DNA of 58,385 nt from Saccoglossus kowalevskii (lineage: Eukaryota > Hemichordata > Enteropneusta > Harrimaniidae), in the NCBI RefSeq assembly GCF_000003605.2, contig NW_003121911.1, positions 250,594 to 308,978 of the forward strand, read 5' to 3'. This document shows, piece by piece, positions 5,001-58,385 of this stretch. The notes below the pieces were generated by a model that worked only from the letters and a program-made list of their open reading frames with translations, did not search any database and was not told where the DNA came from. Within the stretch, counting starts at the first letter, position 1; every line of letters begins with the position of its first letter. A program made the position numbers and the translations under genes.

Positions 5001-8000
5001 CACAAGGAATGATGGTTTTTCACAGCTCTAGGCCCTTTACACCCACTGTCGGCGTGAGGCCGACGGACCGACGTTAATTTCGAACACTGTTTCTGACATA
5101 CAAAATACATATTTTGCTGTGCAGTTGATGGTTGACTTATTGATTTCTCTCTATTGCAGCGTTAATGAATTACTCAAAGCTAAGGAAGATCTCACCAAAG
5201 AAAGGGATGAACAGTTGAATGAGATTGTGAAGCTACGCGAAGCTTTAACTGAGGCTAATAATAGAATGGCCAAGGCTGAGAAAGATAAAGATGATGCAGA
5301 ATCTAAGATAGCTGAGGTAGGGAGAAAAGAGAGTGGGGTCAAAGAGCAAATAACAGATCATAATTTTGAATTTGATGTCCAGGTTTTCAACATTTCATCA
5401 ATCTCACACTCACACTCTTTGCTGTTTTCCTTTTTCAGTTGAACCAAGATATCCAGGTGCGAAGCAATGAAGCCCAGCGCGAGTCTCGTAGAAAAGACAA
5501 ACTGGAGAGGGAGTTGAAACAATCCAAAGCTGAACAAGAAACCAAAGCGTCTGAAATTAAAACAATGTCAACACAGCTTGGAAAGTACAAGGAGGATGTT
5601 TCAAAGTTGGAAACACAGCTGAAGGAGAATAGGGTAGGTTTTTTTTAATTTTAATTCCATAATTAAAGTATGCTGGCTAATCTACAAATATATTCATTTA
5701 AGTTTGTTATGTAGGAATTGCCTTTTCATATAGTTTAAGTACCACCAGTGATTTTAGTATTAGTATAGCTACACTTTCAGTGATAATTTCATTCTCACAG
5801 TAATGTACTGTAAAGTGATTTTATTTTGTGAAGCAACAAATATCTTGTATCTGTGAGCTAGGATTCTAAAGCTCCGAGTCCCTGCATCTTTGGAGATTTT
5901 TTTCCTCGTGGACACCGATAAATCGTGAAAATTCCTGGCAACGAAAATTAAACTGTATACAGTTTTCAGATCACATGAGTAATAACATGAATGTTTGGTA
6001 GTATTATAGCTTAAAAGCATCTTATAAATAATGTCACGATTTCTAAAAAACTTTTTTTTTTATTTTTCCTTTTACAGATTCTCTATGAGCGTGCTCAGAA
6101 AGATAGCGATATATTGAATGCCCGGTTTACCAAACTGCAGACTGATTACGAGCAACAACTTATTAACGCTGATACACTAGCTCAAGAAAACCAACAGAGA
6201 GTTGCTGAACTTAGAGTAAGTATAGTAGCTGCAATTGTGCTGCAACACACCTTGTCTTGTAATTATAATAATAGTATTATGTATTTCTATATGTGTGCTT
6301 TTCCAACTGTAAGTGAGTATGCATGAGCACTCTATTATGGAGCAGGTTTTTCAAAATTTTCTTTTTTGCTCAACTTTTAATGTTATTTTATCTTTTGGTG
6401 TGCAGGCTAAAGAAGATGAGATCAATGCATTGAAACAGGACACTATTCGTCTTAGTAAGATGCGTGAAACCATCCAGCGTAGACTGCGTTCAGTGGAAGA
6501 TCAGAAAGCTGAGACTGAACAACAAAAAGAGACTCTAAAGAGTCAGATTGTTGGTCTTGAAAGAGGTAAACATACATATATGATTGCTTTCAAACACAGC
6601 TACCAAGAATTATTAGAATTATTTTTTCACTATAAATATGTGAAGATGGTAGTTGTTTTCAAAATTGTTCTATTTCATTCTCACAGACATGAAGTTGATG
6701 GTTAAAAATATGATAATGAATGTCATGACTGAATTGATTACAGAGTAGTTTCAATCAGAGCTTGACCTCTGTATTCACTACCAGAATATAGCAAACAACT
6801 CTTGACAGTACTCTTGTTGTAGTCACATGTAATATATAATAAACCGTAATAAACCGTGAATGTTGAATGAAGAAAGTATGCTCAATAGAGCTTTCCTTGG
6901 CCTCAAAACTACATGGATAGTGTCTGGAAAATTTCACTCTGGTTAATTTAGGCAGGGAGTCAGTGATTTTCATATAATTCAATCCATGTGACCAACATTA
7001 AATTATCATATCACATCATGAGTGGCAGTTTACAGTACATTATGTAAACCATGTAGTATCTAAATAAAAAATTGCATTATTGTATACTTGGTCATTTAAA
7101 TGTGACCTATTTTAGCCATAGGCCGTTGTCATTTACATATCTATTGCAGCAAATCCATATTTTAGGCAGCAATAATTATTTTCGGTCAAAACATACAGTA
7201 CATAATTCTTGAGAAATCCCATGTTAACCTGAAAAAGGTTATTTTTTTGTTATCTGTTTATATAAACAGATGCTGCTTCAGTAAGATATCAGTATTATTT
7301 GATTTAATATCTCTCAATACTTGTGCCTACATGTAGAACTGATTTGGCAGTCACAGAGACTCAAGTGTGAGTTTGTATTTGCTATTGTTTACCCCAGAAA
7401 TTGAAGCTGGTAAAAAACAGCAAGAAATGGACAGGAAAGCCATCGACGACCTTGTGCGTGAACGTGATATCCTGAATAAGAACATGTTGAAGGCTGCCAG
7501 CGCTACGCAGAAACAACTGAGCTTGGTGAAATTGCACGAACAGTCCAAGAAGAATCTGGAACAAGAAATCCAGAACTACAAGGAAGAAGCCCAGAAGCAG
7601 CGTAAGATAATCTATCAGTTGGAGAAAGAGCGTGATCGTTACATTAATGAAGCCAGCGAACTTACTCAGAAGGTACAGTTACGTTAATTATTTCACGTTC
7701 GTTCTGTTCAAGTTTTCAAATAATCTGTGAGTGAGGTTATTTCTTTGGTTTATAAGTTCATGAGAAACATATTTTAATTTGAGTGACATTATTCATGCAG
7801 GTTTTACAACACATGGAGGATGTGAAAGTCCGTGAAATGCAGATCTTTGATTACAAGAAGAAAATTGCTGAAGCCGAAACCAAGTTGAAACAGCAGCAGA
7901 ATTTGTACGAGGCTGTACGCAGTGATCGTAACTTGTACAGCAAGAACCTGATAGAATCCCAGGTATGTTTTGTACATCAGTGATTTTTTCATATTATTTT

Positions 8001-10797
8001 TTTAATTTTGCAGATACCTTTTGGGCATTTTGAACCTCTACATAAATTCCTCAATGGTTGTATTTTGTGTAGTACATTATTATATTCAAAGATGCATTAC
8101 TGTCAATGAACTTCATTGGTGCTACATCCTGTCATATTGATAGAGATGTTTACAAAATTGATTTTTCAAATTTATGCATGTAATATTTAACGAGATCAGT
8201 TCAGATCAGATCAGATGTACTGCAATTAATTATTCTACTAATATTTAACGAGATCAGTTCAGATCAGATCAGATGTACTGCAATTAATTATTCTACTGCA
8301 TGCAGGATGAGATTACAGAAATGAAGAGGAAGTTGAAAATCATGAACCATCAAATTGATCAACTCAAGGAAGAGATCACTGCTAAAGAAGCCGCTCTGGT
8401 CAAAGAGCATCTGGATCATCAGCGGGTTGAGAAAGAGAAAGAGGCTCTAAAGATGGAGCTTCAGAGGATGAAACAACAAGCTGCTGAGAACAAGGCTTAC
8501 ATCGAATCGCAGGAGGCAGAGGAACGTAAACTCCTCAAGATCATCTCTGAAGCTGATGCTGAAAGACTGCGACAGAAGAAGGAACTAGATCAAGTAATAA
8601 GTGAGAGAGACATTCTGGGTACTCAACTTGTACGTCGTAATGATGAGCTGGCCTTGCTGTATGAGAAAATCAAAATCCAACAGTCAACTCTGAATAAAGG
8701 TGAGATCCAGTACCGACAACGCTTGGAGGATGTACGCCTGCTCAAACTTGAGATCAAAAAGCTGCGTAGGGAGAAGAATATTCTTAATAAAAGTGTGGCA
8801 AATGTTGACGACTTGAGGTAAGTTCAGTGTCATTTAACTGTAGTCACCACTTGTTTCAAATTTTATTTTTATTGATGCAATCAACTTCTACAATGTATAT
8901 TGTTCTGATCTTATCCTGCTGATGTTTCTTGAACTTTTCAGGCGAGAAGTCTATCATTTGCAGCGAGAACTTCTCCGCGAGAGAACACGTTGTAAGGCAC
9001 TGGAGGAGGAACTAGAGAATCCAATGAACATCCATCGCTGGCGTAAACTCGAAGGCAGTGATCCCAGCACATACGAAATGATACAGAAAATCCAAACATT
9101 GCAGCGCCGTTTGATTCAGAAGACTGAGGAGGTAGTGGAGAAGGAATTGTTGATTCAAGAGAAAGAAAAGTTGTACGTTGAATTGAAACATATCCTGGCA
9201 AGACAACCTGGGCCTGAAGTCGCTGAACAGTTGCAGATCTATCAGCAAACACTCAAAGAAAAAACAAAACAAATGAAAGTGAGTCATGTGTTAATACTCA
9301 TTATTATACATCTGTCATCGTAACGCCATTTAATTTTGCGGTATTTTCATACTACCATATTAGGAAATGCGAAATCCAAATATGAAATTATTACGCACGT
9401 AAGCGTCCTCTAATAATAAAAACAAACATGGCTGCTACCAGAGTTTGACCGGACTCCACACAAAGAAATTCGCTGATTCTGTTGTAAACATTTTTGGATT
9501 TCGGCATTCCCGTAGTGTATCCTTGGAAGAAAAAGATATATAATAATAAGGTTATTACGAGGATATCTCAAAGTATGCACTCAGACAGTTCGCAGCCCAA
9601 CGACCTCCACTGCGTGTCGGTCGATACTCCAGCTGTACTGTCTTCATGCATACTTTGAGGTATCCTCGTAATAACCTCATATTATTCTGAATGTTTTTTG
9701 ATGTATCTCTGTCTGAACATCTGAATGCAAAATAGAATTTTTTCAGAATCCTGTTGATGTAACCAGTGATAAAAATGTATGTACATTTCTGAGTTATGCA
9801 ATACCAAACTCTTGTGTTCTGTTGCTAGGCAATGTCTTCTGAATTAAACATGTACGAATCTCAAGCTAACGAGTATAAATATGAAATAGAGAGACTTGCT
9901 AGAGAGCTGCAAGAAGCTAAGAAAAAATACTTCATCCAGAAAAGAAAAGAGCAGCAACAAAGGTGAGTACATTTGGAAAAAATTTACATTTATTTTGGTT
10001 TGCATCTACTAAAATTATGTTTTGTGATTAGACATGTTTTTCGACATCCTCATAATCTATGTTGTGTGACTGTGACTGTGTTTTAGGATTTTTGAATGAT
10101 GGGAATATACAATTGCAATCATCATTAAGTAATACATTGTGTTTTTACCAAAATAAATTTCTATATCCTCTAAAACTAAAATCGATATACATGTAATGTA
10201 ATACATCCATAATAAAATAACAGGTGTCGAAAATAACGTCGTTTTTTGTTTACACTCATTAAAAAGCAGTATATGAATTAAAATGAATAAATAAAAGCAG
10301 TTGTCGAATGAGAGGTTATTAGTAGTTGTATTTATTTGCAGTAACAATTAATAAATAAATGAAAAAAAAATGTGTCATTATAACATCATTTTCGAAAAAA
10401 TTACCAGGAATATTTTGTTGTGGCTGGCTGTTATGTTTATTTCAATGATATGCATGTATTGCCGAGTCTGATTACACATCACAAACACCAGTGACATTTT
10501 TATTTGACCTGGGTTCCTCCACTCATTCCTCACAAATAAGAGACTTATCCAATTTACTGGGACTATTTTTAAGGGTAACAATAACCAAAAGGGAATAGTG
10601 GTCCCATCCAACCATATGTCAACTATTACATTCACTAAAATATACTCTTTTTTTTTTCTCTTTCATTATATTACAGGGAGCGTGAAAGAGCTTTAGCACA
10701 GGCTGGTGCTCCAGTTATTCAACCTCAGCGACACGACGGACCAAGGTTCACCGGTGGAGGATTTAATCTCAAACCAAAAGAACTCAAAGCATCTTAA
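2028..10797 (+). CDS. CFAP58: cilia- and flagella-associated protein 58 (CFAP58/CCDC147), complete, 13 coding exons
   Basis: Coding exons: 2028-2036, 2273-2584, 3368-3516, 5160-5316, 5439-5633, 6078-6215, 6406-6565, 7398-7672, 7801-7962, 8306-8817, 8942-9278, 9829-9962, 10677-10797. They join in frame with GT-AG introns to 2661 nt, giving 886 residues plus TAA; human CFAP58 is about 872. The product is almost entirely charged alpha-helical coiled coil (Glu/Lys/Gln-rich heptads). It carries the family motif with residues NPMNIHRWRKLEGSDP at about 716-731 and ends in a short non-helical Pro/Gly-rich tail (about 860-886). In vertebrates the protein is an axonemal/flagellar coiled-coil factor needed for sperm-tail and cilium assembly. 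The first coding exon holds only three codons (Met-Ser-Glu). Later internal Met codons would cut off the conserved N-terminus, so the 2028 start is preferred. All exons are open and intact. The orthology is firm; each splice site is inferred from phase and consensus. Confidence 0.95.
4564..5089 (-). mobile_element. complete non-autonomous hAT transposon in CFAP58 intron 3
   Basis: The element has perfect 17-bp terminal inverted repeats: CAGTGTTCGAAATTAAC at the left end and its complement at the right. It is flanked by a perfect 8-bp target duplication, TTTCTGAC (4556-4563 and 5090-5097), the hAT signature. Length is 526 bp, too short for a transposase. On the minus strand an open stretch of over 40 codons ends in a very acidic tail (containing SEDFDEFSDDER) with a stop near 4720 followed by AATAAA. 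This looks like the 3' end of the parent element's gene kept in an internally deleted copy. The intact ends suggest fairly recent insertion. Confidence 0.85.
8181..8296 (+). repeat. perfect 58-bp tandem duplication abutting a CFAP58 splice acceptor
   Basis: Two identical 58-bp copies (8181-8238 and 8239-8296) lie in intron 9, ending 9 bp before exon 10 (8306). Each copy holds overlapping AGATC/CAGATCAGATC motifs and a CTGCAATTAATTATTCTAC segment that could supply a branch point and pyrimidine-poor acceptor tract. Absence of any mismatch implies a very recent duplication or an assembly artefact. Confidence 0.9.
9363..9510. repeat. foldback element in CFAP58 intron 11
   Basis: GGAAATGCGAAATCCAAATATG at the left pairs imperfectly with CATTTTTGGATTTCGGCATTCC at the right, about 22 bp per arm with roughly 100 bp between. 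No target duplication was identified. Probably a decayed MITE. Confidence 0.45.
9542..9686. repeat. long-stem inverted repeat (MITE-like hairpin) in CFAP58 intron 11
   Basis: The left arm, starting AATAATAAGGTTATTACGAG, is nearly complementary to the right arm ending CTCGTAATAACCTCATATTA. Pairing extends about 38 bp through AAAGTATGCA/TGCATACTTT and reaches inner GACAGT/ACTGTC blocks. The transcribed intron would fold into a long hairpin. A non-autonomous transposon is most likely; a hairpin-RNA source is possible but unsupported. Confidence 0.7.
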
Positions 10798-32711: not shown

Positions 32712-33346
32712 ATGCAGTTGTATTCATATGCAGATTGTAAACCACTGCAGTTGTATTCATATTCCTATCATAAACCGCTGCAGTTGTATTCATATACAGA
32801 TTGTAAACCACTGCAGTTTTATTCATATGCAGATTGAAACCACTGCAGTTGTATTCATATTCTGATTATAAACCACTGCAGTTGTATTCATATACACATT
32901 GTAAATCACTGGATTTGTACCCATATGCAGAATGTAAACCACTGCAATTATATTCGTATGCAGATTGTAAACCGCTGCAGTTGTATTCGTATACAGATTG
33001 TAAACCACTGTAGTCGTATTCATATGCAGATTGTAAACCACTGCAATTATATTCGTATGCAGATTGTAAACCGCTGCAGTTGTATTCGTATACAGATTGT
33101 AAACCACTGTAGTTGTATTCATATGCAGATTGTAAACCACTGCAGTTGTATTCATATTCTGATTATAAACCACTGCAGTTGTATACATATACACATTGTA
33201 AACCACTGGATTTGTATTCATATGCAGGTTGTAAACCACTGCAATTATATTCGTATGCAGATTGTAAACCGCTGCAGTTGTATTCGTATGAAGACTGTGG
33301 ACCACTACGATTGTATTCATACAAAAATGTTAAACCGTTAGAACTA
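32712..33346 (+). repeat. 33-bp minisatellite, about 19 copies, with 9-unit higher-order period
   Basis: The unit is of the form CTGCAGTTGTATTCATATG then CAGATTGTAAACCA. Variants recur in order: the block starting at 32843 reappears 297 bp (nine units) later at 33140 with few changes, and a three-unit sub-block repeats inside it. Because 33 is divisible by 3 and the unit lacks stops in several frames, long open frames appear on both strands (for example 32823-33320 on the minus strand). They encode only an 11-residue repeat and have no splice or start context, so I treat them as non-coding. Confidence 0.9.
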
Positions 33347-41450: not shown

Positions 41451-41616
41451 ATGCGGCTTTCATCATGGTTTGAGGTGAAAAGACAAGAACTTTATCAATG
41501 GCATTCAGAGTTCACTTGGCATGGATTTTTTGTCCAGATTCGTTCGTCGCGTCGCCTTGTACTATTTATCGTATTCGTTGCCTTGTTACTGGACAACATG
41601 TTATTGACTACAGTAG
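41451..41616 (+). CDS. VMAT: VMAT exon 1: cytosolic N-terminus and most of TM1
   Basis: Residues 1-55 plus one base. Contains [11 protein letters not shown], the TM1 signature with the charged Asp needed for amine recognition in the family. Donor GTGAGT. Confidence 0.93.
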
Positions 41617-44600
41617 GTGAGTAAATCACGCCTTCAACGGCAGTACGACGGCGAGGTTTCAAAGAACCAGACATCCATTTTAATTTCCTTTTCAACTGTT
41701 CAATTTTAGTCCTCTAAACACAAACGTTTTTATTTAATTTGTTATAATTACCAACTAATAACAATTATGTGCTCAGACGCTCGTTTTCTTTTCAAGAGTT
41801 ATAAACGCTTCTTTTGTTTTTACAGTTCCCATAATTCCAGATTATTTGTTCAGACTTGAACATCCAGACGAAGTGCGTTTCATAGATGGGCACGGAGAAA
41901 CCGTTACTAATACCACCAACGTCACTTCCGCTTTTAGACATAGTTTAAATTTTACCAGTGAATATAATTCCAGTATGTGTTCTTCGGCTAACAGTGCCTG
42001 GTTTCCCGAATGTAACGTGACTGATGACGCTTATACACGTAGTAGTTATGGACAAGATTTGCGTGACGAGAATGTGGAAGTCGGACTACTGTTTGCATCA
42101 AAGGCATTCATTCAACTGATAGCTAATCCGTTTATTGGCCCCCTAACGAATAGGTAAGTACCGATAAGTTCAAAGGGTATGAGCGGAATGATATAGTCCA
42201 GGATAGCTGTAAACAAAGACGTTCGACTATGTGTGAAAACATACCATTTATTACAAATTAATGTAAAACATGTTGAAAAGCGACATGCAATTTTAGCGAA
42301 TTGTTGTAAAATGAGGTAATAGCGAAATGTTGATTTAGCGAATCTCTCTTGTCGTTGTTGATTTCATGTTTTCACAATACTTTTCTGTTGCGTGCCAAAA
42401 CAAATGCGCAGTTATCACCTCCATAAAAACAAAGAAAAACTGTCAAGTGTAATTAGGAAGCGCCCCAGAATTTTATGTTCTGAATTATTGTACAAAATCC
42501 CCAAGCCTTTGACATTTTGAATTTATAATAAAGTCATTAGCGACATCTTGACTTAGCGAATGAGTTATCTCGCTAAATTCGCTAAAAAGACATGCTCGCG
42601 AAAAAAGACATGTTTAACAACAGTATATGCAGTCACAAGTTGTAGCAGAAACAATGAATTAAATTTCGTTCATTGAGGACAACTAATTTAAAAGTCTAAC
42701 TACCACTAACCACCGTATTTGAACAACTGCTAAGTGAATGAGTCCTAATCTTAATTCATGAGAGATCGGTAAAAATGACATATCAATATTTAATGTATGC
42801 CATTGTTCATTGGAGTATGAGTCAACATCATTATGTTGTATTGTTTCAGGCTAAATATTATGCAAACAATTTCGAGAACAGTTTACACAGGACACAGCGA
42901 TAAATCATTATTTCATGTTTAACCTTTTTCTAAAACCAATGCTGTAAACATAATTCACTACAGTAACTAAAAAAGAAAAAGTACTATATCAGTTCGGCTA
43001 TCTTTAAATAGTAACCTACACAATAAATTATGACAAACCAGTATTCATGTTTATAAACAGTACATCAATAATATAATTATACAAATTCATATTTGTTGAT
43101 ACAGACAATAATTTAATCTTCTGAATCTTGTATTCGTGTTTACCTTCCAAGTCGTCGTGCTTGTTGTCAGGGTGTATTTTATGTATACTGCTATGTTATC
43201 GGTGCATCGTGCACTTCAATATTAGGTCAATTGTATTGTGAAGATTATTCTTAATTTCATAATTCTCTTAATTCTTCATCATACTCATCCATATCAATAT
43301 TTTCTACATTTGGACCATGGTAACGTTTAAAAGAATATTTTCCTCTAGTTGTTTTCCATCAGCGTTGGTGGCTGTCATCATTGAATCGCACAACCTGAAA
43401 TGTATCTTGATTTATATTTTACTCGTTTCGTATTTTTCGCAAACACCCTCCCCTCCTTCAGGAAATGATGTTAGCTTTATCGTCGTTTTCGTGAAACACT
43501 TATTTTTTGTTCATGCTACGATTGTGTTTTAATCTCATACTCTGGTCTCCATCAAATAATTTCGTATTATGGTAAATAGAAATAAGTTTATTTATAATTT
43601 TGATGGACGGAGAGTTGTGCGGTAATTTATTTGTTCATTACTTGTCACAATGAAATCATGTAAAATATTAGAATATGTATAACCATGTAAACCACTGATC
43701 AGGGGTTATAAAATCAGAGATGAAAGTAGACCTTAGACAAACATGACCGCCGTGACGTGGTTTTTCCAGTTAAATAGTTTTTTTTTTGTTCTCCTGACCT
43801 ACGTAACCATAGTAATTTGAACAATGAATGAGATCACCCGAGAAAATGAAACACTATTTGAGAGGTAAAACAAGCCTCGTTGCGTTCTCACACTCAACGA
43901 GATTTCGGCGGTCATTAACGTCTGAAGTATGTTACGAATAAAATAAACTTTACGATACTATGCTATAATAAGCTTACAAGCTATTTTTGAAGACTATTTT
44001 AAGATGAGTGAGTCGCTAGCATACATCGTACAGTGTGTTCATTTGTAGCACGTACCTTTTCTCACATAAAATGTTAATCGCATTATAAAGGTGTATATCC
44101 TATATGTACATAGTATATAGACTAAATATGAGTTTCCTGTTTCAGGAGCAAACAACATGTACAGCTGGTTTTTTTTTTATCCAACATATTCCTGTCTGTC
44201 TTGTCTAAAAACATCAATTAATACACTTGTAGCAAACAGATGAAATGAGTTCCATTTTATAACATAACAATGAAAAAAAATGAACAGTATGACGAATTTT
44301 ATTGAGATCAAGTTCAATCGAAATCAATAATTAATGAACAAAGAAATGGAAATTACTAGGCCATTAAACAATAAACAAATTGTTATCAAACATATTACAA
44401 TTTCAAGACATACAGCCTATTTTTAATCTCGCGATAACAAATTATTATATTAACATATATTATAGAACTAATAACTCACAGTGGAGAATGGTTGGTTAGC
44501 ATAAGCTGTAATATGCAACTTGGGTATACTAATCACATGACTAACACGTGATATTCTACTCACGGTGGACGTAGTATTCGTTCGAGTTTCGTCAATGGGG

Positions 44601-47600
44601 CTTCTGACATTTTAATTGGGTTATTCAGACTCAGACTATAGTTTGTCTATGAATGAGGCTTGGTGTGATCTGCAATCAGTTGTTCATGTGTGGGGCGAAT
44701 AGACAGTGGACTCTCTGACTTGATAGGATCGGGATATTGTGTTTGTGACTGAGGCAGCTAATGGATTGCCTGTAATGGTCGTAACACCGTCGTAGAGTGT
44801 AAAGACGTCACAAGGAAACACGCACTTATATTATAGTTGTCTTAAACAGGCCGAATATATGTAGATATAGGTATTCCAGCGATAAAATTGCAGTTAACTT
44901 AGGCGTTCCCTTATCATCCCCGAGTCCCATGTTCAACAGAATGAATATATTGTCACGTTTGAATTAATAGTATGCTGGCTGCTGTATTACACCACAAAAC
45001 AGAGCGGGAATTCGGAAAGTCACACCCGCTTTTTAGTAACTAAATTATACATAAACTATAGAAATTGAATTCATGTAGTGTGATAACATCCACCAGTCTT
45101 ATGTCGTAGATATTACTAGTACGCGATTTTGTTGAGACCCAGATGGGTCATCGTTAGACACAAATTAAAATCGAGAATGGTCTCGAAACGCATATAAGTC
45201 AATAAGTTAATCTGGGTGTATCAGACGACTGACACTGCGCGGACATCCGTCTATTCCGTTTAATCCAACTTTTTTTCTGTATCATTACGTTGAAACTGCG
45301 ATATGACAACAATAGTTATCTCCGCTATGACTTATACTATTGAAACATTGTATACATAATTTAAAAGATGAGGTGTTCTTTTCAGGTCATTTAAATAATA
45401 CTCAATTTCTATGTTTTTTTGATAACTACAAATTAATACACTAATGCATCCAAACATCAGTGGACCCAGAATACCGCTTAAATGGTGATATTTATAAAAG
45501 ACGACGATTTTCAAATAGGATCAACATCTCAAGTCTCTTTTTTATCCTTATGAACACACGTTTAAAATATCCCCAGTTAACTTCAAATCGGACGCGAATA
45601 GCCTATGCTTTTTAAAATGAATTTCGACCAAAAAATTATCTTTTATTTTAGGATATTAAGGCAATTTCATGTGAGTTTAACTTGGTTTCAAAGTGTAGGT
45701 CTTCTCTCAATATTCGTGTTTGTTATTACCCAATTAGGGCACAGGTCTATAATATTTAAAAACCATACTATTTAATATGGTCATTTTACCGACAGCCTCG
45801 TACAAATCACTCGGTACTGAACATGGTTCATGCTAAGAATTGTTTGAGAGATTATCTGGATTTCGTAAATTACTCTTTTTTTGCTTTAAAACGTGCGATT
45901 TTTTATCATAACATCGTAACATTATGTACACCATTTAACGAAATACTATTTTTTTTTGCAGAATTGGTTATAGTATCCCCATGTTTGTAGGTTTTATTAT
46001 TATGTTCATTGCAACAATAAGTAAGTAATAAACAATCATTAATCTCATTCTCGTGTGTTAATCACAACGTGACATAAGAGTGATTTTCGCTCTGAGTTGA
46101 TTTCAAATCAGGCGCGCTGGCGAATCCGCCTCCTTGAGTATGGGAATGTGACAGATACCCGGTATGAAAGTTGGTGTGGAGCCGAGCAGGGTTGTTAACT
46201 AGCAGTACAGTTTCAGTCAATTTGGACTTAATTTGTTTGCACTTTAATCCACCACACATATGAGTATATCTTCAAAATGATGTAAGAATATGTAATAAAT
46301 GTAAACAAAGTTTCAATACAATGTGTCAAGTCACCGATTATTGTAAAGTTTCGTGAACAAATTTCCAATAATTATCTCCTATATAACAGTTTTTGCAGTA
46401 GGAGAAAGTTACAGTGTATTATTAATAGCGAGGATGTTACAGGGCATCGGCTCAGCGTGTTCCTCCGTGGCAGGTATGTAATAATCGTTTATTAAGACAT
46501 CGTTATTTTGAGCCGTCTTTTCTAAGACGGTTACTGTTGTGTGCGTCTGCTTACATTGACTAGAGGTTTTGTCGTGGTCGTTTGTTTAAACAGATGTTTA
46601 TATGTTTGTAATATGCCTGTATTTTATATCGCGAGGGGAAGGGGTATTTTATTGGTAATAACATCAGCACGCTCAAAGTCTTCAATATTGAAAATTAAGA
46701 AATGTAAAGTAAAGTGTAACGTTTAGGTAAATGCGAATATCAACTTGAATTTATTGTAATCATTATGCGTTTTAATTGCATTTTGGTTAGCCCGATAATG
46801 CTAATTACATGACACGGGTGGCATTTGACTGCTCAATATAACTGGCAAAAATAGTAAAAATAACAAAATAAAATAAAAACGAAATTATTTTTCTTTTCAA
46901 TCGGTGAGGGCGCCCATCATTAATATGTCACGTACGAGTACGACATATTAGTATTAGCGATCTTCAGCGTGCTATTTTAAAATTTACCATCACTCGTACG
47001 AATATATCATTAAAACTAAATAATAAATAGGATGACGTCTTCATATAATGATATCCGTGTGCGACGTACACGGAAGCGTACATAGATCGCTGATAAATGC
47101 AGCGAATCACCGAACACCTAACTTATAGAATGGTGTAGTGGCTATCACTACCACAGCCTACTTTAACTGTTACAGTCTCTTCATATTAGGGATGGGGATG
47201 TTAGCTGAAAGGTACCCGGATGATGAAGAACGGGGTAATGCTATGGGCATAGCATTGGGAGGCCTTGCACTGGGAGTTCTGAGTACGTATTTGAAAATAA
47301 CAAAATTGTTGTATACATTTTAACGGAATGACACGTAGTTAAATGTGGACATCACACAGTGATTGGTCTCAAATACTGTCTATGACGTGATGTCAAGAAT
47401 ACAACTTGAATGATGTTATAGAGTAGGATTCTTTGTTTTTAGATTTTTTCATTATTTGTGCGTCCCCCAAATTATAACAGCCCTTCATAGTATGTATTCG
47501 TTGTAGACGAAAGTAGGAGAAAAGTAGATTTGCCGACGTTAGTGGGCGCTGTATGTGTTCTTACATTGCGATCTTCCTGTCTCGCAGTTGGACCCCCATT

Positions 47601-50600
47601 CGGAGGCGTAGTTTACCAGTTTTTAGGGAAAGAAGCACCGTTCTACATTTTAGCAGCTCTAGCCCTGGGAGATGGATGTAAGTGTGATAGTTTATTTTCT
47701 TAATGATATATTTACTGAGCTTGATTCATTGTTCTGGTCACGTCGTATCAGAACCGTGTAAGTGGCAAACATGTAGTCTAGTCACGTGTATCAGTACGTT
47801 TTGTTTCATTTGAACATGATTGCGTCACTAACTTTCCCTGAACTATTACACGTTCATTCTGATTCTGTTAATGTTCAAAAATATCACGTGAGTCAAACCT
47901 AAATTTAAATATATATATATTTATATGACGTCACTTATCCAAATGTTTTGTTAATTAGTAGTAGAATATTCTTTTCACCGTAGAAGGCGCGTTGCATTTT
48001 ATTTTGAAACCTTAAAAAAGGAAACACGTTCCATGGAGAACGCGTTTTCATGTATCGTATTCACCTTGTTCCGGTATTGACTTCTTGGTCGCTAAAATCA
48101 TATTGTCAACGTGAATTTACGTAAATTAGACAGATAGTTACATTAATATCTTCATTTGAAATGTAATAACACGATGTTATTGTCATTTCACGACGTGTAA
48201 GACAGAAACTATGAACGCGACACTGAACAAAATACATACACGATGATACTGTTCCAACAATAAATAATACGAAATTATGCACATTGTATACTAGTATACA
48301 AATTTATGTTTCATCTATTCCCAGTGTTGCAGTTATTAGTATTAAAACCCGGCGTGGGCAAGGAGGTTCAAATGGAAGGAACACCTCTACTGACTCTAAT
48401 AAAAGACCCATATATTCTCATAGCTGCGGGTAAGTCGATTTGCATCATCGCATATATTGTCCACAGGCACCCATACATTTACGACATCGATGATGCAGTT
48501 TCGCTGATGGCACCCAGGGCGAACTGTGTTAATTCTTGCTGAACTTATAACATCGGGTCGCGCGTGGTATTAATACTTTATGACTTTAATCAACTCTGAT
48601 CGGGAATTCAGCCGATGAAGAACTCATGATTAACCTATGATCCGTAATTTTAATCTCCTTCATATGTTCCAACAACTATGTGAGGTGATTGGATCGTTTA
48701 ATGTCACGTGAGAGTTTATATCATAACCCGTGGTATGAATAATATATAATTCTAGTTCCGGGCTTGAACTGCAATCACTTTTTGGATTAACATACAGCGG
48801 AAGCGTCCTTCGAAAAATGATTAAATAGTTTGTTTTTAGGGAAGAGTATAAAAGGTCTCCAAACGGATCAGATGACATGTATTAGCCTATGGTTTTATTT
48901 TTATTTCTCACGAGACATTTTCTAATTCCTTTGTTTTTGTAACAAATTCTGAAAAAAATTACTCTTAGATTCCAGGCCATTTACTGTGAGTGTTACTTGG
49001 GTGTTTTTAATACAGCCACCTTTAGGGAAGTCATTGTTGATTGGGTTGTACATGTACTCCATGATTGTACAGTGTTTCGAATATGACGGGCATGCACGTT
49101 TACAACGCTTGAGGGCAGTGTTACACGCACACCATAATATTGACAGAAACAGCCAAAATGATTGGGCTTTGCACGTGTAAGGAAAAAAAACTATGTTCAT
49201 GTTCATAAAAAACAAAATATGTTCATGTCATATTGCATGGCTTATTTTGAAATACGGCCCACATTCTACATGTTACATGCGTGTCCACTGTATTCAGTGG
49301 ATATGGGATAGTTATATCTCCTCTCCTTTTTTTGTAAATAACTTTTTAACTTCTTGTTGTCATCATAGGCATTCTTCGTGGTTTTCACCAGTTTTGCGAG
49401 AGGTGTACCTAATTTGTACTCATAGTGTTGACCCATGACACGTCAAAGTGCCTCGATACCCCAGTGTTGATTTAGTTTTCAGCGATTTGCAACTAGTTAT
49501 ATGGATTAGCTTTGGATGGTTCAGGTTCATAAGAATTCAATTCTTTGCCTGCATATTTTCGCTGTGCTCGCCCGGGGGTAGTGATTATGACGCATGCGCA
49601 CACCGGAACATGGTTTCGATCGGAGACCGTCAGTATTCTTGAATCGTTATTTCAGTAATATAAACCTATCTGACACGTCGACCGTTGAAGGTTATTCTGT
49701 GTTGCAAGCGTATTCCCTCGTCACGACATTTCGCTGAGAAATGCGATAAAACGTGACTTGAAAAATAATTGAATATTTTGTGTGAATTTTTATTACTTCA
49801 AACAAAATATATTATCAGTGAGTATATAGCGTCTATTAATGAAAATTTCTTTTGAATTCGTTTTTTTAGAATGAATATTTAAGGTTTCATTGAGAGTGCA
49901 CTGTTTTATGAATACGTTGTCATATTTTGAGTTTCGTCACGGTTGTGTTCGCATTCTTAGAACATCATGCATTTTAAAATATGTTATTTTACGTGAGATA
50001 AATGTGTATACCAATTCACGTCCTTTAAGAGTAGTCATATGTTAATATTCCGTGTTTCGCATCGTAGAAGAAATTTACGATGTTACGTCTGAGCGTAATG
50101 AACATATACCCAAGTACGTCATAGTAAACTACCATTAATTGATTGTTGTAATACATTTGGAGAAGTGTTACTATTTTTGTTTTCAATTCTGACCATCATC
50201 CTGTTCACGAGAAAATGGTGGTGCAGATGAACACTATTTATAACTAGTTAGTTATTTGGTGCTTTTAACAAATCTACGATATATATATATATATATATTA
50301 TATAAGGCATCATTTTTTTCTTATCATGTCATTGAATCTGACAGTGTCCCTCCAACAATACACACGATGCTTGTTTAGTATTGTCAATAAGGGGATGGGT
50401 GGCAAGACCTTGACTGATGACATCATGCGGCCTACTAAGCTACACGATATATTAACGTGACCACACGGACAATTTAGCATTTTAATATCATTTACATATA
50501 TGTTAAAGATGCAATATGGTGGAGAACATGTATTTTTTAATATTGTTAGATACTGTATTTTGAGGAATACATTGATTTATCATGACTTAAAAACGCCGTT

Positions 50601-53600
50601 CTTGTAGCACACATTAGAGTTCTTGTTCAATGACGTAATGAAATTCTCGAATACGCATGTGCACTGGTTTTTTTGGTACGTACAATCGTAAGCACCACAC
50701 ATGCGTATTAATGTTTTTTTTTACTCAGCAAATACTGGCGTGTGTCCTGCATGATTCGATTTAATATACAGAATGAACTATCGAACAACACTATTACAAA
50801 TATACATGTTCACGTCCATATTACTTTTTTAAGGGCAACTCCAATTGAATCTGTACTAACTAATGATCGCAGTCTTGGGTTTGAAAAAAAATATGTAAAT
50901 TACCATTAGTTCAAAAAATTTAAATACGTGACAATAATTAAACAAGTTGATTTAAATTTATTTATTTATTGTCTGTTTGTTTGTTTTTTGTTTCCTATTT
51001 ATTCATCATACAACAATGCTTCACTGAGTGTAGGAGAGTTGAAGTTAGATCGGCTAACTTGGTGTGAGCTTTTTAGTTGATGCTGTAAGACAGACATGGT
51101 TCGGTTCGCCTTTAACACATCGCAACTGATACATATGCTTGTGCTTCGTGCCTTGGAACAGAGCCACTTTTATTTCAAATATATATCCGATCAAATTGGA
51201 ATCTCTGGAAGTACATCGGTGGAAGGTTAATACGATTCGTGATTTTGGTGGCATTTTTCAGTAACACCCTGACTGATGATTGAAATGTTGATGTTTTAGT
51301 TCATAAGTTGACCTTAGCCCGTAGGCTTAATACCAGCGGGTGCACGCTTACATATGCCACCGAACACTGCGGTACATTGTGTGAAATATACCGGTCCATG
51401 GTCGTGCAAATGGGATTCCCTTGCGACGTCAGTTGTGGGTACGCTATGAAAAGGTGATATTTATATTTATAAAATTATGAATAAATCATACGAAATTTGA
51501 CATATGCAAAACACACAAAAAACGGGCGCTAATCTGTCTTTGCCACATGGGATTATAGTAAACGTTGCCTAGCAATGAGTTAATAGAAACCAATGCGGAA
51601 ACAATGTAGTGAGAACGTCTCCTATAGGACACACTAAATGCCACTCTTGTGTAATATGAACTGTACGCTCACATACAAAATGAATAAAATTCCGTGTTTC
51701 TGGATAACTTCCGTTCATAATTAAATTTCATTCTCTCTTGAAGTGACATTGAAAACATGAAAGTGCTATTAAGCTAGAATCGCATTGCTGGAAGCGACTG
51801 CGCTAAATATTAGCTTATATCACAGTGACAAAAAATCGCTTTTGCTTCAATTTCATTTAATTCCGATGACCGTGAGCTGACAACGTCGGTGTGAATTGAA
51901 CGCGACACGCTCTTAACCATAGTTCTACATTAATGTAACCCGTTTTTCTTATTTTTTTTGATAGGTTCTATAACATTTGCAAATATGGCGATAGCACTAC
52001 TGGAGCCGTCCATGCCTTTATGGATGATGGAAACCATGGAAACAGAAAAATGGCAACTAGGTACGATCGCAATTTGTCACTATAGTAACGCATTGCCCGT
52101 CGAAGTATTATCTCTAACAAAGTGAAATTCACATTGTGTGTGATGGAAAAAGATAATGTTACGGTGACCGTATGATATATTCGAGACATTTCACCCGTCC
52201 CAGTTTCCCCAGTGTGCGTCTTAAGATCCTTATACGGCGTCACAGCTTTCATTATCCCTCTCGCACTTTTTCAATTCGGAGATTTTTATTTTTATACCTT
52301 ATTTCAAAAGCTGCTGTATTAATTTTATCACAAGTGATTAGTTATTGCATCCCCTCGTGCTAGTCGAGTACCCCCATCTAAATATCCCAGAGCAACCTAG
52401 AGCGTACGTGATAGCTACCACTATATGGGAAATTGCAGTTTTATTCAAATTATCTTTAAAACGTTATGGTCTACGGCATTTTCATTACATCGAAATGCAG
52501 AATAATTTGCACATGGTTTATTATATAGATTTGACATTTAAAACATATTAATTTCGAGTTGTACTTTGTTTGGATTGCACATAGTGCCTATGAATCCTCA
52601 CGTGACATCCGGGTGATGGCGGCCTGAATGTGTCAGCTTAGACTCTACGATTCAACATTCAGAGAGTAGTAAATAATGCAGATCGCTTTGACAATATACT
52701 ACCATGGCAACGCCGGATGTGTGTTGTCACCAGAGAAAATGAAGATAATTTTCTGGCAAGATAGCTAGCTATGAATAATACAATAGCGTACGTATTCTCC
52801 CGAGCCGGCGCCAAGTTATAAGAAGAAAAGACGGTCACTTGCCCAATTGGAATCTTGCCTAACATCGTACCTCGTTTGACCTATTATTTCTATCACCTTC
52901 AGCTCTGTTCCCAATTAATCTGTTTATCGTAGCGTTAAAGTTGCCCGCATTCATCATTCTCGTAATCTAGGGTATTTAGCGATAATAACACCCGTGTATC
53001 AACAGATCATGTGTATTAACACTTCGGGACACAAACTTTACTCTCACCGAACGCACCTTTATAAATACTGTATTAGTAAGAGTCAAACCTCCAACATTTA
53101 GCGAGGTATTACCAGTCCCTGTTCATTATTTATGCATCGTTGAATTGGCTGATAAATGTGGTATGTATGCAGAGTGGTTACCCGAAAACCTCTCAATGAC
53201 CTTGGATCGATTCCGGAAAGTGCAGTCTGTGTACTCATACCTCATACCATACAGTGCACGATAAAGCCAACTACGTGGTCACGTATATTTTCAAAATTCT
53301 CGCATTTGTAACAATTTTAGAAGCAGGGTCTGACGTCGATTTTAAGAAAAATCTCTTACTGTTATTAACAGTTATATTTATATAACTCTTGTAGGTTTTA
53401 TTGTAACCGTAATTCGCTCACAAACATATTCTGTTTTCATTTCGAATAACCATCGCTAGACATATATCGTCTGATACCAACATACGGATACATATCTCAA
53501 AACTGCATTATTTCTACTACGTTTAATCATATACTGTATAGAAGAAAGATATATAACCGTTGCAAACTTCAAAGGAAATCCATGTTTATTTTGGCACAAG

Positions 53601-56600
53601 CCTGACTAGAAATAATTAAATCTGTTACAGTAGTAATAATCAGAATACAAAGAATCTTTATTACTCCATGGTGTAGTAGCCGGAACAGGGATATTTCGTG
53701 TAACCTAATTTCATCTATACGGTCAATGGTTTAACGTACAAAAAGAATTTATGGGAGTGCGTATACACCGACAAAGCATTGTTATTTAATTTAGAAACTC
53801 CGTGCATCGTTCAATATTGCTATATCCACCCGCAGACTCACTATCTAATGAAATGTCGTGACGGATACTCGGGAGATACGAACTTGCCCCTGGCTGTCAT
53901 ATTCACAGGAACCCGGATTGAAATGAACAGCTATACAATGAATGCAACGTTATACTATTTACTTTACTGTATATGGTTGCTCGAGGATGTAATTTGGGAT
54001 TGTATTTGACCCTAACAAATATAATGTATACCTATTGTTGAGACTATTTTGTACAAAAAAAGTATTGTCCAGAAATATAAGTCAACTTTATATTCCCGAG
54101 TGTCCCTCGCGACATTTATCTCCTTAGTACAATGGAGACACCGGTCATATTACAACTTTTGCACTTACTAACGTTCTCGGTGATTTATCATTGTGTTAAC
54201 AGGGGCAGCGTTTCTTCCAGCTAGCGTCTCCTACCTGATTAGTACTAACATATTTGGTCCACTCGGTCACCGTATGGGAAGGTATACACCGTTAATAACA
54301 CGACATATTTACCTCATTACACAGTCATGCTTCTCACGGCACGTACGTCGCAAACGCCTCACAGCGCTGAACACCCACGCTCACGCAGATAGAATCTGTT
54401 CGTGATACTCAGCTCACAAGACGCCTCCGGTGTTGGAATAGATTCCTGCTTAGTTTTACGTAACTCGTGTGTCACCAGGCATTCACGATGAGTCACTACC
54501 CCAACACGGAACCTTAGCGCATTACAAACTGCAGCACTTATTGTTTCATAACACCAAGCGTCTCATCTTCTATATCTACTCTAACCTTCAAAGCACTACA
54601 CACAGCAGAAAACACGGTTATACTTATTCACTCTCAATTAACGTGTCTTCTTCTTCTTCAGCTAACGTTGAGCACTCTCTTTCTCTCTCTATTAAAGCTG
54701 GCACCTGCTACTAGCGATTAACGCCATATATTTTTTTAAAGTAGATTGTATTATTTATTTATTTATTTATTTACATAATCGGCACTTGCACATATCTTCT
54801 CTAGGTTCTATTTGGTTGGCACCAAGTATAGGTTATACGTTAGGCACTTACGTCTTTGGTTATCTAGCATCTAAACTGGGAAGGTAATGTCTCTGCCTCT
54901 TTAATGCATGCCATTTCTTACTACTCTTGTTTACTCGATAGCTAAAGCACCACACCCTACTTATGTTACCGCTGTCAAGTAGGAGGCAGTGCGAAAACTG
55001 CCTCCTGCAATTGTCTAATGCGCGAATTAACTTAACGCAATTTATAATCTTTCGTCACTACTTCCACAGCGTGAGGTTTGCTTTACGGTATGTTTTGCGC
55101 GATCCAACGATAACCACGATACCTGGCTACTTCGGCATGTACACAATATCGTATTTATTATATCATTTGCTAAACGCAAGTTATTCTGTTTTTTTCCTTG
55201 AATATGTTGATTTTACAAAATAATTCAGTCGCCACACTACTCTGATATTCTCTGCAATGGTGTCAAAGTTATGGAATACTTACTTATTATAATATATATT
55301 TACAATGTTATTATTTTCATTAATACAAAATAATGTAGCAGTAAGCTGTTGGCCATATTCGCAATGGCTAAGGTGTCGTGGTTTTCGTTGGAATTTGTCA
55401 ATGTGATGCACATAATGTGGGGTTTATCCCGAGTCTGTGGCAATATAAGTCATACAATACTACTAGGCGTTCACCGATTCGCACATCAAGACGTCTCCTG
55501 TGAATAACTGTCCTGTTAGTTTTCACTCTGAAAAGCTTTCAACAAATATCGAAACGCAATCTGTGAAGTCATTCAGTTGCTTTCGTACCAATTAAACAGC
55601 AATGTGTCAGTTGCTCCACTAAAATATCCTTATATGGTAATAGATAATTTGAGTTAAATCCATTTTGTCGCAGGCACCACTCGCGGTGTCAAGTTTCAGG
55701 TAATTCGAAACAGAATTATTGAATCGTGTAACTCCATAAAGAGATATCATTTCTCGTGGCAAATGGTTTTTGTATACTTCACTTAAAATTTCCTTACTAA
55801 ATGGAAACCGACGCACATAGTATAATATGACGACCATCTAAATTGATGCGCCCTCTAGCGCCAAAATAATTATGTGACGTAAGAGTCGTTGTTGGCGTCT
55901 ATTAATAAAGAAAAATACTTCTAATAGAGATTCATTATTTTCTAAATGCCATTCAAATCAAACAGGGTCGTCCATTCAAAGGGCGGCGTCCATCGCGCTG
56001 CGTCCCGTTCGATAAGGGATTCAGAGCGACGTACACAACGCCAATAAAATACAATTGTTTTTGTACGTGAAATTCGAACTCGCTATATGTGATGGCCACG
56101 ACTCTTTAAACGATATTGCTTATACCCATGTACACCATTTTGACGTCACAAAAATGCCTCGTCGCTAGAAAGCGTATAGGTCAAAATTCTTAACTAATCA
56201 GAAATGCTAATATAACAGATTTTACAACAATTAACAATAAATGACATTCAGTTTTCGATTCAGAAGTTGCTCAACGCAACAACAAGTTAACAAGACATTA
56301 ATATACGTTGTATGAACTTCAGTGTACTCGCTTTCTATTGTGTAATACAACCATATTAAAGCTGAGCATTTACCAAAACGTTATAATTTAAATATAAATC
56401 ACTGTAATCATGGAAATGCTCCATTTATCGTAATTTATTTCATCTGTGGACAGATAATTTCACCATCTTGCTGTGCATGTAATAGTACCCTGTGAATAAA
56501 AAAACGGCTGTACACTTACATTTTACATTCGGTCTCTATGTTTCAATTATTATTACATATCGGAATCTCGTATATAAAGAACCCAATCTTTGAATACACA

Positions 56601-57009
56601 ACATCCTGTCAATTAGGAACAGACTTACACATAATGGATAATACATATGGATAAATATATTGATCAGAACACGTGTTTAACTATTAGTCATTTGGCTCGT
56701 TCGTTAAAAAAACTAAACAGAAAACAATAGCAGAATTCGCCCATTTCTGTTTTTTTTTTCGAATTCTCTAATTAAATTCCTACAAACAAACCTAGTGGCA
56801 AAAGCGTAAAAGTCTTTGCTAGTATAAAAGCCTACTTCCGAATATTAGCAGCCATAGGGTATATACCTTTTACGTAGATGCGCATTTACCGTGTCCGCAT
56901 TATAAGGAGATTACTGTGAATACCAGGAAATTACTTTACGCTCTGAATTCATTACAGGTGGCTGTGTTCATTAATAGGAATGAGTATAACGGGCATTTGC
57001 ATGGCTTGG
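41451..57009 (+). CDS. VMAT: vesicular monoamine transporter (VMAT, SLC18A family), 3'-incomplete
   Basis: Exons: 41451-41616, 41826-42153, 45962-46020, 46390-46473, 47190-47282, 47588-47677, 48325-48429, 51965-52060, then 54203-54281 or 54805-54883, then 56958-57009. All phases agree and give 384 residues, covering TM1 to TM9 of the 12-TM major-facilitator fold. TM10-12 and the C-terminus lie to the right of the window. The protein exchanges lumenal protons for cytosolic monoamines in synaptic and secretory vesicles. Key residues are present, all offset from human VMAT2: D48 and N49 in TM1 (D33/N34), K148 (K138), R199 (R189), N315 (N305), E322 (E312). The lumenal loop (about 61-140) has five N-glycosylation sequons. 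Motifs [20 protein letters not shown] and [14 protein letters not shown] are VMAT-type rather than VAChT-type. The ATG at 41451 follows an in-frame TAA at 41439, supporting the start. The lumenal Cys at human position 324 is Glu here. Confidence 0.93.
41826..42153 (+). CDS. VMAT: VMAT exon 2: end of TM1, glycosylated lumenal loop, TM2
   Basis: Residues 56-164. VPIIPDYL is followed by a Ser/Thr/Asn-rich loop with sequons at N84, N87, N97, N103 and N119 and two Cys (C107, C118). The segment [14 protein letters not shown] then matches TM2. Donor GTAAGT. Confidence 0.93.
42266..42617. mobile_element. TIR element (MITE-like) in VMAT intron 2
   Basis: The left end AAACATGTTGAAAAGCGACA, then TGCAATTTTAGCGAATT, is inverted at the right end (AATTCGCTAAAAAGACATGC, then TCGCGAAAAAAGACATGTTT). 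TAGCGAA motifs recur inside. About 350 bp, no open frame. Confidence 0.55.
43862..43925 (-). repeat. dispersed repeat family, copy C (inverted)
   Basis: Read on the minus strand: AATGACCGCCGAAATCTCG, GTGTGAGAACGCAACGAGG, CTTGTTTTACCTCTCAAATA. It aligns with copy A at 23657. Lies in VMAT intron 2. Confidence 0.5.
45962..46020 (+). CDS. VMAT: VMAT exon 3: TM3
   Basis: Residues 165-184. [19 protein letters not shown] matches the VMAT TM3 pattern. Acceptor follows a long T-run; donor GTAAGT. Confidence 0.92.
46390..46473 (+). CDS. VMAT: VMAT exon 4: TM4 with conserved Arg
   Basis: Residues 185-212. Contains [19 protein letters not shown]199 corresponds to R189 of human VMAT2, a conserved residue of the transport path. 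Confidence 0.92.
47190..47282 (+). CDS. VMAT: VMAT exon 5: loop 4-5 and TM5
   Basis: Residues 213-243. The motif [19 protein letters not shown] is followed by [11 protein letters not shown], characteristic of SLC18. Acceptor TATTAG, donor GTACGT. Confidence 0.92.
47588..47677 (+). CDS. VMAT: VMAT exon 6: TM5-TM6
   Basis: Residues 244-273. [18 protein letters not shown] is the SLC18 GPPFG motif region, followed by hydrophobic TM6. Confidence 0.92.
48325..48429 (+). CDS. VMAT: VMAT exon 7: end of TM6, cytosolic central loop, start of TM7
   Basis: Residues 274-308. LLQLLVLKP, a short hydrophilic loop, then [16 protein letters not shown], a near-exact family motif. Confidence 0.92.
51965..52060 (+). 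CDS. VMAT: VMAT exon 8: TM7
   Basis: Residues 309-340. [19 protein letters not shown] carries N315 and E322, equivalent to N305 and E312 of human VMAT2, and W328 (W318). The sequence [11 protein letters not shown] has Glu where human VMAT2 has the lumenal Cys324. The exon ends with one base of a Gly codon, so the next exon must start in phase 1. Confidence 0.93.
53168..53230 (+). mobile_element. tRNA-like fragment (SINE relic) in VMAT intron 8
   Basis: GCAGAGTGGTTACC resembles box A, and GGATCGATTCC (53204-53214) is a good box B about 35 bp later. The 3' wording differs from the other SINE copies. It does not fold as a full tRNA by eye. Confidence 0.3.
54203..54281 (+). CDS. VMAT: VMAT exon 9a: TM8, canonical version
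   Basis: 79 nt in phase with exons 8 and 10. It encodes [18 protein letters not shown] with flanking GAA and GHRMGR, very close to TM8 of vertebrate VMATs. F344 and Y351 correspond to human VMAT2 F334 and Y341, which line the amine/tetrabenazine pocket. Acceptor AACAG, donor AG|GTATAC (weaker than the donor of exon 9b). Confidence 0.9.
54805..54883 (+). CDS. VMAT: VMAT exon 9b: alternative TM8 exon
   Basis: 79 nt, same phases as exon 9a, with acceptor TCTCTAG and donor AG|GTAATG. It encodes [18 protein letters not shown] with flanking GSI and ASKLGR. Ten of 27 residues match exon 9a, and most other changes are conservative. The F334-equivalent is Trp, and Pro/Ala are swapped after it. Tyr at the 341-equivalent is kept. 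Inclusion of both copies, or of neither, shifts the frame and meets a stop (within exon 9b if both; within five codons of exon 10 if neither), so only one can be used per functional transcript. It could be a dead duplicate, but an open frame and good splice sites after so much divergence argue for selection. Confidence 0.8.
56958..57009 (+). CDS. VMAT: VMAT exon 10: TM9
   Basis: Completes an Arg codon, then [17 protein letters not shown], matching the family's WLCALLGM motif. Ends in phase 0 with donor GTAAGT. It is the last exon visible in the window. Confidence 0.9.
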
Positions 57010-57290: not shown

Positions 57291-57435
57291 TATAGCATTA
57301 CGTTTCCCATGAGTTATTTCCCCCAAAGATTCATATACATATAGTTGCAGCTTTAGAGAGAGTTGGTTCTTTTAATTAGTCTAATATCTTGTAGAATGAC
57401 TAGATTATCCATATAAGTAACATACTATCCATATA

Positions 57436-58385
57436 AGGAACGTGAATTCTTACAGATGGATATGATTGCCTGTACAATTAACAGGTTTTAAGGAACCTGA
57501 ATTCTTACAAATGGACATGATTGTCTGTACAAGTAACTGGTTGTAAGGAACCTGAATACTTACAGATGAACATGATTGTCTGTACAAGTAACAGGTTGTG
57601 AGGAACCTGAAATCTCACAGATGAACATGATTGTCTATACAAGTAACAGGTTGTAAGGAACCTGAATTCTTACAGATGGACATGATTATCTATACAAGTA
57701 AAAGGATGTAAGGAACCTGAATACTTACAAATGAACATGATTGTCTGTACAAGTAACAGGTTGTAAGGAACCTGAATTCTCACAGATGGACATGATTGTC
57801 TATACAAGTAATAGGTTGTAAGGAACCTGAATTCTCACAGATGGACATGATTGTCTGTACAAGTAACAGGTTGTAAGGAACCTGAATTCTCACAGATGGA
57901 CATGATTGTCTGTACAAGTAACATGTTGTAAGGAACCTGAATTCTTACAGATGGACATGATTGTCTGTACAAGTAACAGGTTGTAAGGAACCTGAATTCT
58001 TACAGATAAACATGATTGTCTGTATAAGTAACAGGTTGTAGAGAACCTGAATTCTGACAGATGGACATGATTGTCTGTACAAATAACAGGTTGTAAGGAA
58101 CCTGAATTCTTACAGATGAACATGATTGTCTGTACAAGTAACAAATGTAAGGAACCTGAATTCTTACAGATCGACATGATTGTCTGTACAAGTAACAGGT
58201 TGTAAGGAACCTGAATTCTCACAGATGGACATGATTATCTGTACAAGTAATAGGTTGTAAGGAACGTGAATTCTCACAGATCGACATGATTGTCTGTACA
58301 AGTAATAGGTTGTAAGGAACCTGAATTCTTACAGATGGACATGATTGTCTGTACAAGTAACAGGTTGTAAAGAACCTGAATTCTC
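57436..58385 (+). repeat. 55-bp minisatellite, at least 17 copies, running off the window
   Basis: The unit contains AAGGAACCTGAATTCTTACA, GATGGACATGATTGTCTGTA and CAAGTAACAGGTTGT. Copies from about 57540 onward are highly similar; the first two or three are more diverged. It lies in VMAT intron 10. Open frames on the minus strand with a 55-residue period are artefacts of the repeat. Confidence 0.95.

Follow-up and report, generated by a model that had tools for sequence, protein, structure and literature searches.

The window analysed here is a stretch of 58,385 nucleotides from the hemichordate Saccoglossus kowalevskii (contig NW_003121911.1, positions 250,594 to 308,978 of the forward strand), and all coordinates below are those of the window unless stated otherwise. 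It carries, on the + strand, exons 1 to 8, 9a, 9b and 10 of a VMAT gene, while exons 11 to 15 follow in the next 10 kb downstream. The gene model was built by tblastn with a human VMAT2 sequence and by reading of splice sites; it comprises 15 coding exons plus 9b and is full-length, with the start codon assumed. Coding exon 1, which encodes TM1 and in which an in-frame ATG was taken as the start, lies at 41451..41616, followed by exon 2 (lumenal loop and TM2) at 41826..42153, exon 3 at 45962..46020, exon 4 at 46390..46473, exon 5 at 47190..47282, exon 6 at 47588..47677 and exon 7 at 48325..48429. Exon 8 (51965..52060) encodes TM7, including the equivalents of N305 and E312. Next come exon 9a (54203..54281; donor AAG/GTATAC), which encodes a canonical VMAT TM8 with F334 and Y341, and exon 9b (54805..54883; donor AAG/GTAATG), which encodes an alternative TM8 with W334, P337 and Y346 in which Y341 is kept. 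TM9 starts in exon 10 (56958..57009). Residues of TM8 are numbered as in human VMAT2.

The product is 519 aa long, whether made through 9a (isoform a) or through 9b (isoform b), and the two isoforms differ in exon 9 alone. Against human VMAT2, isoforms a and b score 625 and 607 bits, respectively, versus 348-359 bits against VAChT chains; the Pfam MFS_1 scores are 165.7 and 167.7. By its full-length MFS similarity, which is nearer to VMAT than to VAChT, the protein is a VMAT of the SLC18A1/2 type, and the first-pass annotation was right to call the gene a VMAT and the duplicated segment TM8. In an alignment to human VMAT2 judged by eye, the equivalents of D33, N34, F135, K138, R189, N305, E312, W318, Y341, D399 and D426 are all present. 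VMAT2 has Tyr at position 433, whereas the Saccoglossus protein has Phe there; the residue is encoded by exon 12 (positions 5006-5008 of the downstream stretch, L002), which is common to both isoforms. When the 572-Mb genome was searched with the TM7-TM9 segment, a single VMAT was found, and the only other match genome-wide was a VAChT present as a single ORF on another contig (C4136, L010). Intron 10 holds a 55-bp tandem array of 17.3 copies with 91% matches (57434-58384), which reaches up to a stretch of N at 58386-61596, just past the window end.

The two versions of exon 9 had been described as adjacent 79-nt copies of the same phase with intact acceptors and donors, and the coordinates and sites, read directly from the sequence, agree with this. 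In both copies the first two bases complete a codon, both end in AAG before the GT of the donor, and both follow an AG acceptor. Comparison of the TM8 peptides gives the same count as was proposed, namely 10 identical residues of 27, the final Arg included (its codon is completed by exon 10); at the nucleotide level, 37 of 79 positions are identical. The predicted frame consequences are also reproduced by the gene model: inclusion of 9a and 9b together leads to a stop inside 9b with more junctions downstream, and skipping of both leads to a stop in exon 10, five codons past the exon 8 junction. A full transporter is thus obtained solely when one copy is used at a time, as had been claimed. From the reading frame and the coding constraint across the pair, mutual exclusivity of 9a and 9b is strongly implied.

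Coding constraint on exon 9b

Similarity was tested over 68,385 bases, that is, the window and the downstream stretch, of which 3,469 are N. The 9b peptide has a BLOSUM score of 52 against 9a over 26 residues. Among the 136,604 ungapped peptide windows in the six frames of these 68 kb, the next scores against 9a after that of 9b are 25 and 23. The score of 25 belongs to the protein's own TM2 segment (42083-42163); MFS transporters contain an internal repeat, and a resemblance of TM2 to TM8 is thus expected. There are 102 open AG-79nt-GT segments in this phase in the 68 kb (55 on the + strand and 47 on the - strand, with 9a and 9b included), and the other 100 reach at most 6 against 9a. When the window was searched by tblastn with a human VMAT2 sequence, 9b was matched at an E value of 0.002. 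These comparisons set 9b apart from a chance ORF.

With the 9b peptide as query, the 572-Mb genome yielded 9b itself (1.3e-11) and one match at E 2.68, which we take to be chance and not a further copy of the exon. The 9b peptide did not find 9a in the 572 Mb, nor did the 9a segment find 9b; given that neither search returned the sister exon, the resemblance of the two copies is too weak for genome-wide detection. No further copy of exon 9 was found, either above a score of 25 in the 68 kb or in the genome searches, which also missed the sister exon.

Identity between 9a and 9b amounts to 10/26 at first codon positions, 18/26 at second and 8/26 at third, and dS is not computable; the difference between second and third positions is significant (Fisher p = 0.012). 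Since third positions are near random and second positions are held, the pair looks both old and constrained. In a simulation of neutral decay at 31% site identity, none of 50,000 runs gave an open sequence that reached the observed score, although the frame stayed open in 34% of them. At higher site identity, the score was reached in 0.05% (45% identity) and 5.5% (60% identity) of runs. The simulation ignores indels and its outcome depends on the divergence assumed; given the 5.5% at 60% identity, the argument against decay rests on the saturation of third positions. Judged from the pair alone, both copies appear to have been constrained at the protein level.

The pattern of shared sites bears on the age of the pair. 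At no site of TM8 do 9a and 9b agree with each other but not with human VMAT2; 9b and human VMAT2 agree against 9a at four sites (339, 344, 352 and 354), and 9a and human VMAT2 agree against 9b at eleven. Given this pattern and the saturated third positions, the comparison of 27 residues points to an old duplication.

Two alternative explanations were weighed. In one, 9b is a duplicate that is out of use and decaying, or else an ORF that arose by chance, as might be suspected from its low nucleotide identity to 9a and from the failure of one copy to retrieve the other genome-wide. However, neutral divergence close to saturation should have erased the likeness, which no simulated sequence at 31% identity retained; the next stretch in the 68 kb scores far lower than 9b does (25 vs 52); and the exact length and both splice sites are intact. 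We therefore regard this explanation as very improbable. The other is an artefact of assembly that merged two gene copies, and its likelihood is next to negligible. The assembly is a draft with 4830 contigs, of which this is one, and no point in favour of such a merger was found; against it, the 9a-9b region matches the genome once, one VMAT gene was found, and 9a and 9b are too different to be alleles.

The alternative TM8 and its relatives

The residues identical in 9a and 9b are G331, L335, S338, Y341, T345, F348, G349, L351, G356 and R357. Human VMAT2 has all ten as well, and at seven of these positions (338, 341, 345, 348, 349, 356 and 357) both VAChTs compared have another residue. At 14 positions 9a equals human VMAT2 while both VAChTs differ; 9b keeps seven of these and loses the other seven (334, 340, 342, 346, 347, 353 and 355), with the VAChT residue taken up at 334 and 346. 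At ligand-contact positions, the changes in 9b are F334W, at the lumenal gate, and A337P, and the proline of the helix is displaced between the copies (P336A, A337P). The seven identical residues up to position 350 fall on one helix face (R = 0.72, permutation p = 0.0035), which is the face with 334, 338, 341 and 345; at 100 degrees per residue, 337 and 346 lie about 90 degrees either side of its centre. Residues of the pocket face other than 334 are retained in 9b. Given that half of the 14 VMAT-type positions are lost and that the score of isoform b against human VMAT2 falls about 19 bits short of that of isoform a, we treat monoamine transport by the 9b form as a prediction.

Work on human VMAT2 gives weight to the positions concerned. 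F334 is reported to form the lumenal gate with F135 and W318 (PMC10959523), and its replacement by Ala to abolish or strongly reduce transport (PMC12721464; PMC10770148); activity is lost in Y341F (PMC12721464). Serotonin is sandwiched between Tyr341 and Phe334/Ile308 (PMC10770148), and tetrabenazine contacts Ala337 and Phe334 (PMC11405867). In VAChT, W331 of TM VIII is reported to be invariant and tied to the affinity for ACh and vesamicol (PMC3757300), and H338 is among the residues proposed for substrate discrimination (PMC11369146).

Several residues of 9b (I333, W334, P337, L343 and Y346) are found in at least one of the two VAChTs compared. Against three VAChT chains, probably all constructs of a single protein, isoform b gains about 4 bits over isoform a. 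VAChT W331 is matched by W334 of 9b, but VAChT H338 is not, as 9b has Y341 there. A conversion of VMAT into VAChT by 9b was rejected, given that this Tyr is kept and that the remaining protein is VMAT. Going by its residues, the 9b form resembles a monoamine transporter whose gate and pocket wall have changed, and not an acetylcholine transporter. Human VMAT2 (SLC18A2) aligns with the Saccoglossus protein over the full length and has its ligand and proton residues in common; no alternative TM8 exon was found described for it or for VMAT1, whereas the present gene offers W334, P337 and Y346 through 9b.

The first-pass annotation knew of no described TM8 exon switch in any SLC18 transporter. Among the matches listed from the open-licence literature there is likewise no SLC18 TM exon switch, which is not proof of absence; the two co-mentions of VMAT and mutually exclusive exons concerned tick ChAT exons and the program Vmatch, both unrelated. 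The novelty appears to lie in the gene and in the site, which is the gate of a vesicular neurotransmitter transporter; exon pairs of this kind are already known. In NKCC2, the choice between mutually exclusive exons replaces one membrane segment by another and adjusts ion affinity. In two surveys, such exons are named for SLC12A1, which is NKCC2 (PMC9741552), and for SLC25A3 and SLC39A14 (PMC5740500); these transporters belong to other families and folds than VMAT, and none is a vesicular neurotransmitter transporter. Mutually exclusive exons, membrane-helix pairs included, are a known kind (PMC5740500), and of the 12 gene families in which human, fly and worm show them, 6 are ion transporters (PMC9741552). 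The Drosophila VMAT gene is reported to have two regulated splice forms, DVMAT-A and DVMAT-B, in different cell types (PMC2570955); there, a retained intron alters the C-terminus, whereas in Saccoglossus a membrane helix of the pocket is exchanged.

Predicted splicing of the pair and its interpretation

The intron between 9a and 9b is 523 nt long and contains an array of CU tetramers (PTB-like) at 54551..54800 on the + strand, with 35 motif starts in 250 nt. This is the densest 250-nt interval of the 68 kb (35 vs 17 for the best elsewhere), and the 11 densest of about 2,700 intervals all begin at 54426-54676, the later ones extending into 9b. The intron as a whole has 72.7 CU tetramers per kb, versus 5-34 in the other 14 introns, among which the density of intron 10-11 is undercounted owing to 3,211 N inside it. 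Splice sites were scored with approximate matrices. On this scale, a decoy acceptor-like sequence, TCTTCTTCTTCTTCAG (54646..54661, + strand), ranks first among the acceptors of the intron with a score of 9.7, which is the 99.9th percentile of 3,231 AGs, compared with 1.9 (93rd percentile) for the 9b acceptor. Extended from the decoys at 54662 or 54698, 9b would be 222 or 186 nt long, with the frame broken either way. Of the 15 donors, those of 9a, 9b and exon 13 are the only ones without a G at +5. However, three exons (5, 12 and 13) have acceptors with lower scores than the 9b acceptor, and the exon 10 acceptor is about equal to it; weak splice sites are thus not special to the pair.

On the 3' side of 9b, a TGCATG (RBFOX-type element) is located at 54905..54910 (+ strand), 22 nt past the last base of the exon. 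Over the window as a whole, the motif shows no enrichment (37 vs 38.6 expected), and at 0.32 per kb the chance of one site within 100 nt is about 3%. Both RBFOX-like and PTBP-like RRM exons were found in the same genome. The CU array lends moderate support to a PTB-type repression of 9b, although such arrays can be simple-sequence expansions, and the single TGCATG hints weakly at an RBFOX-type activation.

As to how double inclusion is avoided, steric exclusion is unlikely given the 523-nt intron. Pairing between introns did not clearly rise above shuffled sequence: its best scores of 31, 26 and 31 were reached by 2, 22 and 18 of 30 shuffles, the first of these (introns 8-9a with 9a-9b) being borderline. 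OGDH exons 4a and 4b offer a comparison, being reported as an ancient tandem pair, both inhibited by PTBP1 (PMC7969005). In OGDH, exclusivity is enforced by distant branch points that lie close to the 5' splice site upstream; none is evident at 9a/9b, given that the AG-free stretch ahead of 9b is only about 58 nt. The introns are GT-AG, and the frame mechanism fits: transcripts with a broken frame would be lost to decay, and this is probably what secures exclusivity. Decay is the candidate explanation for the avoidance of double inclusion, and the steric and RNA-pairing routes have no clear support.

Taken together, the sequence makes it probable that 9a and 9b are old tandem duplicates used in a mutually exclusive manner, such that one VMAT gene would yield two transporters that differ in TM8 only and have the gate and pocket retuned. 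Given that 9a is the nearer to human VMAT2, it would be the default form. The CU-rich, PTB-like array and the decoy acceptor between the exons would hold 9b back, and the TGCATG just 3' of 9b would promote its use in cells with RBFOX activity. Messages with both exons or with neither would meet an early stop and be removed by nonsense-mediated decay. With Y341, S338, T345, F348 and the G356-R357 end kept, the 9b protein would still be a proton-coupled monoamine transporter, in which F334W at the lumenal gate, together with A337P, should alter gate packing, substrate affinity or preference, as well as the sensitivity to tetrabenazine or reserpine.

It is also conceivable that both exons are used but that the switch affects trafficking, stability or heteromers, or yields a transport-dead, dominant-negative form, and leaves substrate handling aside. 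The differences between 9a and 9b lie mostly off the pocket face, 9b is without seven of the 14 VMAT-type residues and has its helix proline shifted, and the transport-dead or nearly dead F334A mutant of human VMAT2 (PMC12721464; PMC10770148) would fit such a role. Nevertheless, Y341, S338 and T345 remain in 9b, as does the G356-R357 end, and VAChT naturally carries W at 334, so that W is evidently tolerated at this position in the family; we hold this alternative to be rather unlikely. Quite improbable, in our view, is the proposal that 9b is a poison exon, whose inclusion with 9a would trigger nonsense-mediated decay and set the level of VMAT. The stop in 9b, with further junctions downstream, is what it predicts, yet a poison exon needs no coding constraint, and 9b has an open frame, second-position conservation and the pocket-face residues.

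A bolder form of the favoured interpretation, in which the two exons give two transporters with a retuned gate, can be put forward tentatively and is open to considerable doubt. The pair might be a deep-rooted, cell-type-controlled cargo selector, in which a PTB/RBFOX-type switch chooses between an F334 pocket and a VAChT-like W334 pocket with two specificities or affinities in different cells; the duplication would then predate much of the hemichordate lineage, and the second exon would have been lost in vertebrates. The neurotransmitter content of vesicles is usually ascribed to the transporter gene that is active in the cell. In the present case, one VMAT could have its pocket retuned by splicing, at a residue that human VMAT2 needs for transport and that contacts drugs there. 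The pair would thus amount to a natural F/W experiment on the lumenal gate and pocket of VMAT, and it suggests a way, open to test, in which amine storage could be diversified in an animal that has a single VMAT gene.

Other features of the window and genome

Apart from the VMAT gene, the window contains a 33-bp minisatellite of 18.5 copies at 32713-33321, which is partly open on both strands. At 6313-9323 on the + strand, several coiled-coil-like ORFs resemble exons of one long coiled-coil gene, which perhaps encodes a cilia/flagella-associated protein.

A mitochondrial contig (C4830; L015, L016) was also inspected, with gene names other than COX1 assigned by eye; its probable codon readings and the adjacency of ND4L and ND4, given below, together suggest a hemichordate. 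COX1 lies on the strand opposite to COX2, COX3, ND4, ND5 and CYTB, and ND4L adjoins ND4. When the nine ATA codons of COX1 were compared by eye with one solved chain, they stood opposite Ile (5), Val (2), Leu (1) and Met (1), and mitochondrial ATA reads best as Ile. From contexts judged by eye, AAA appears to stand for Lys.
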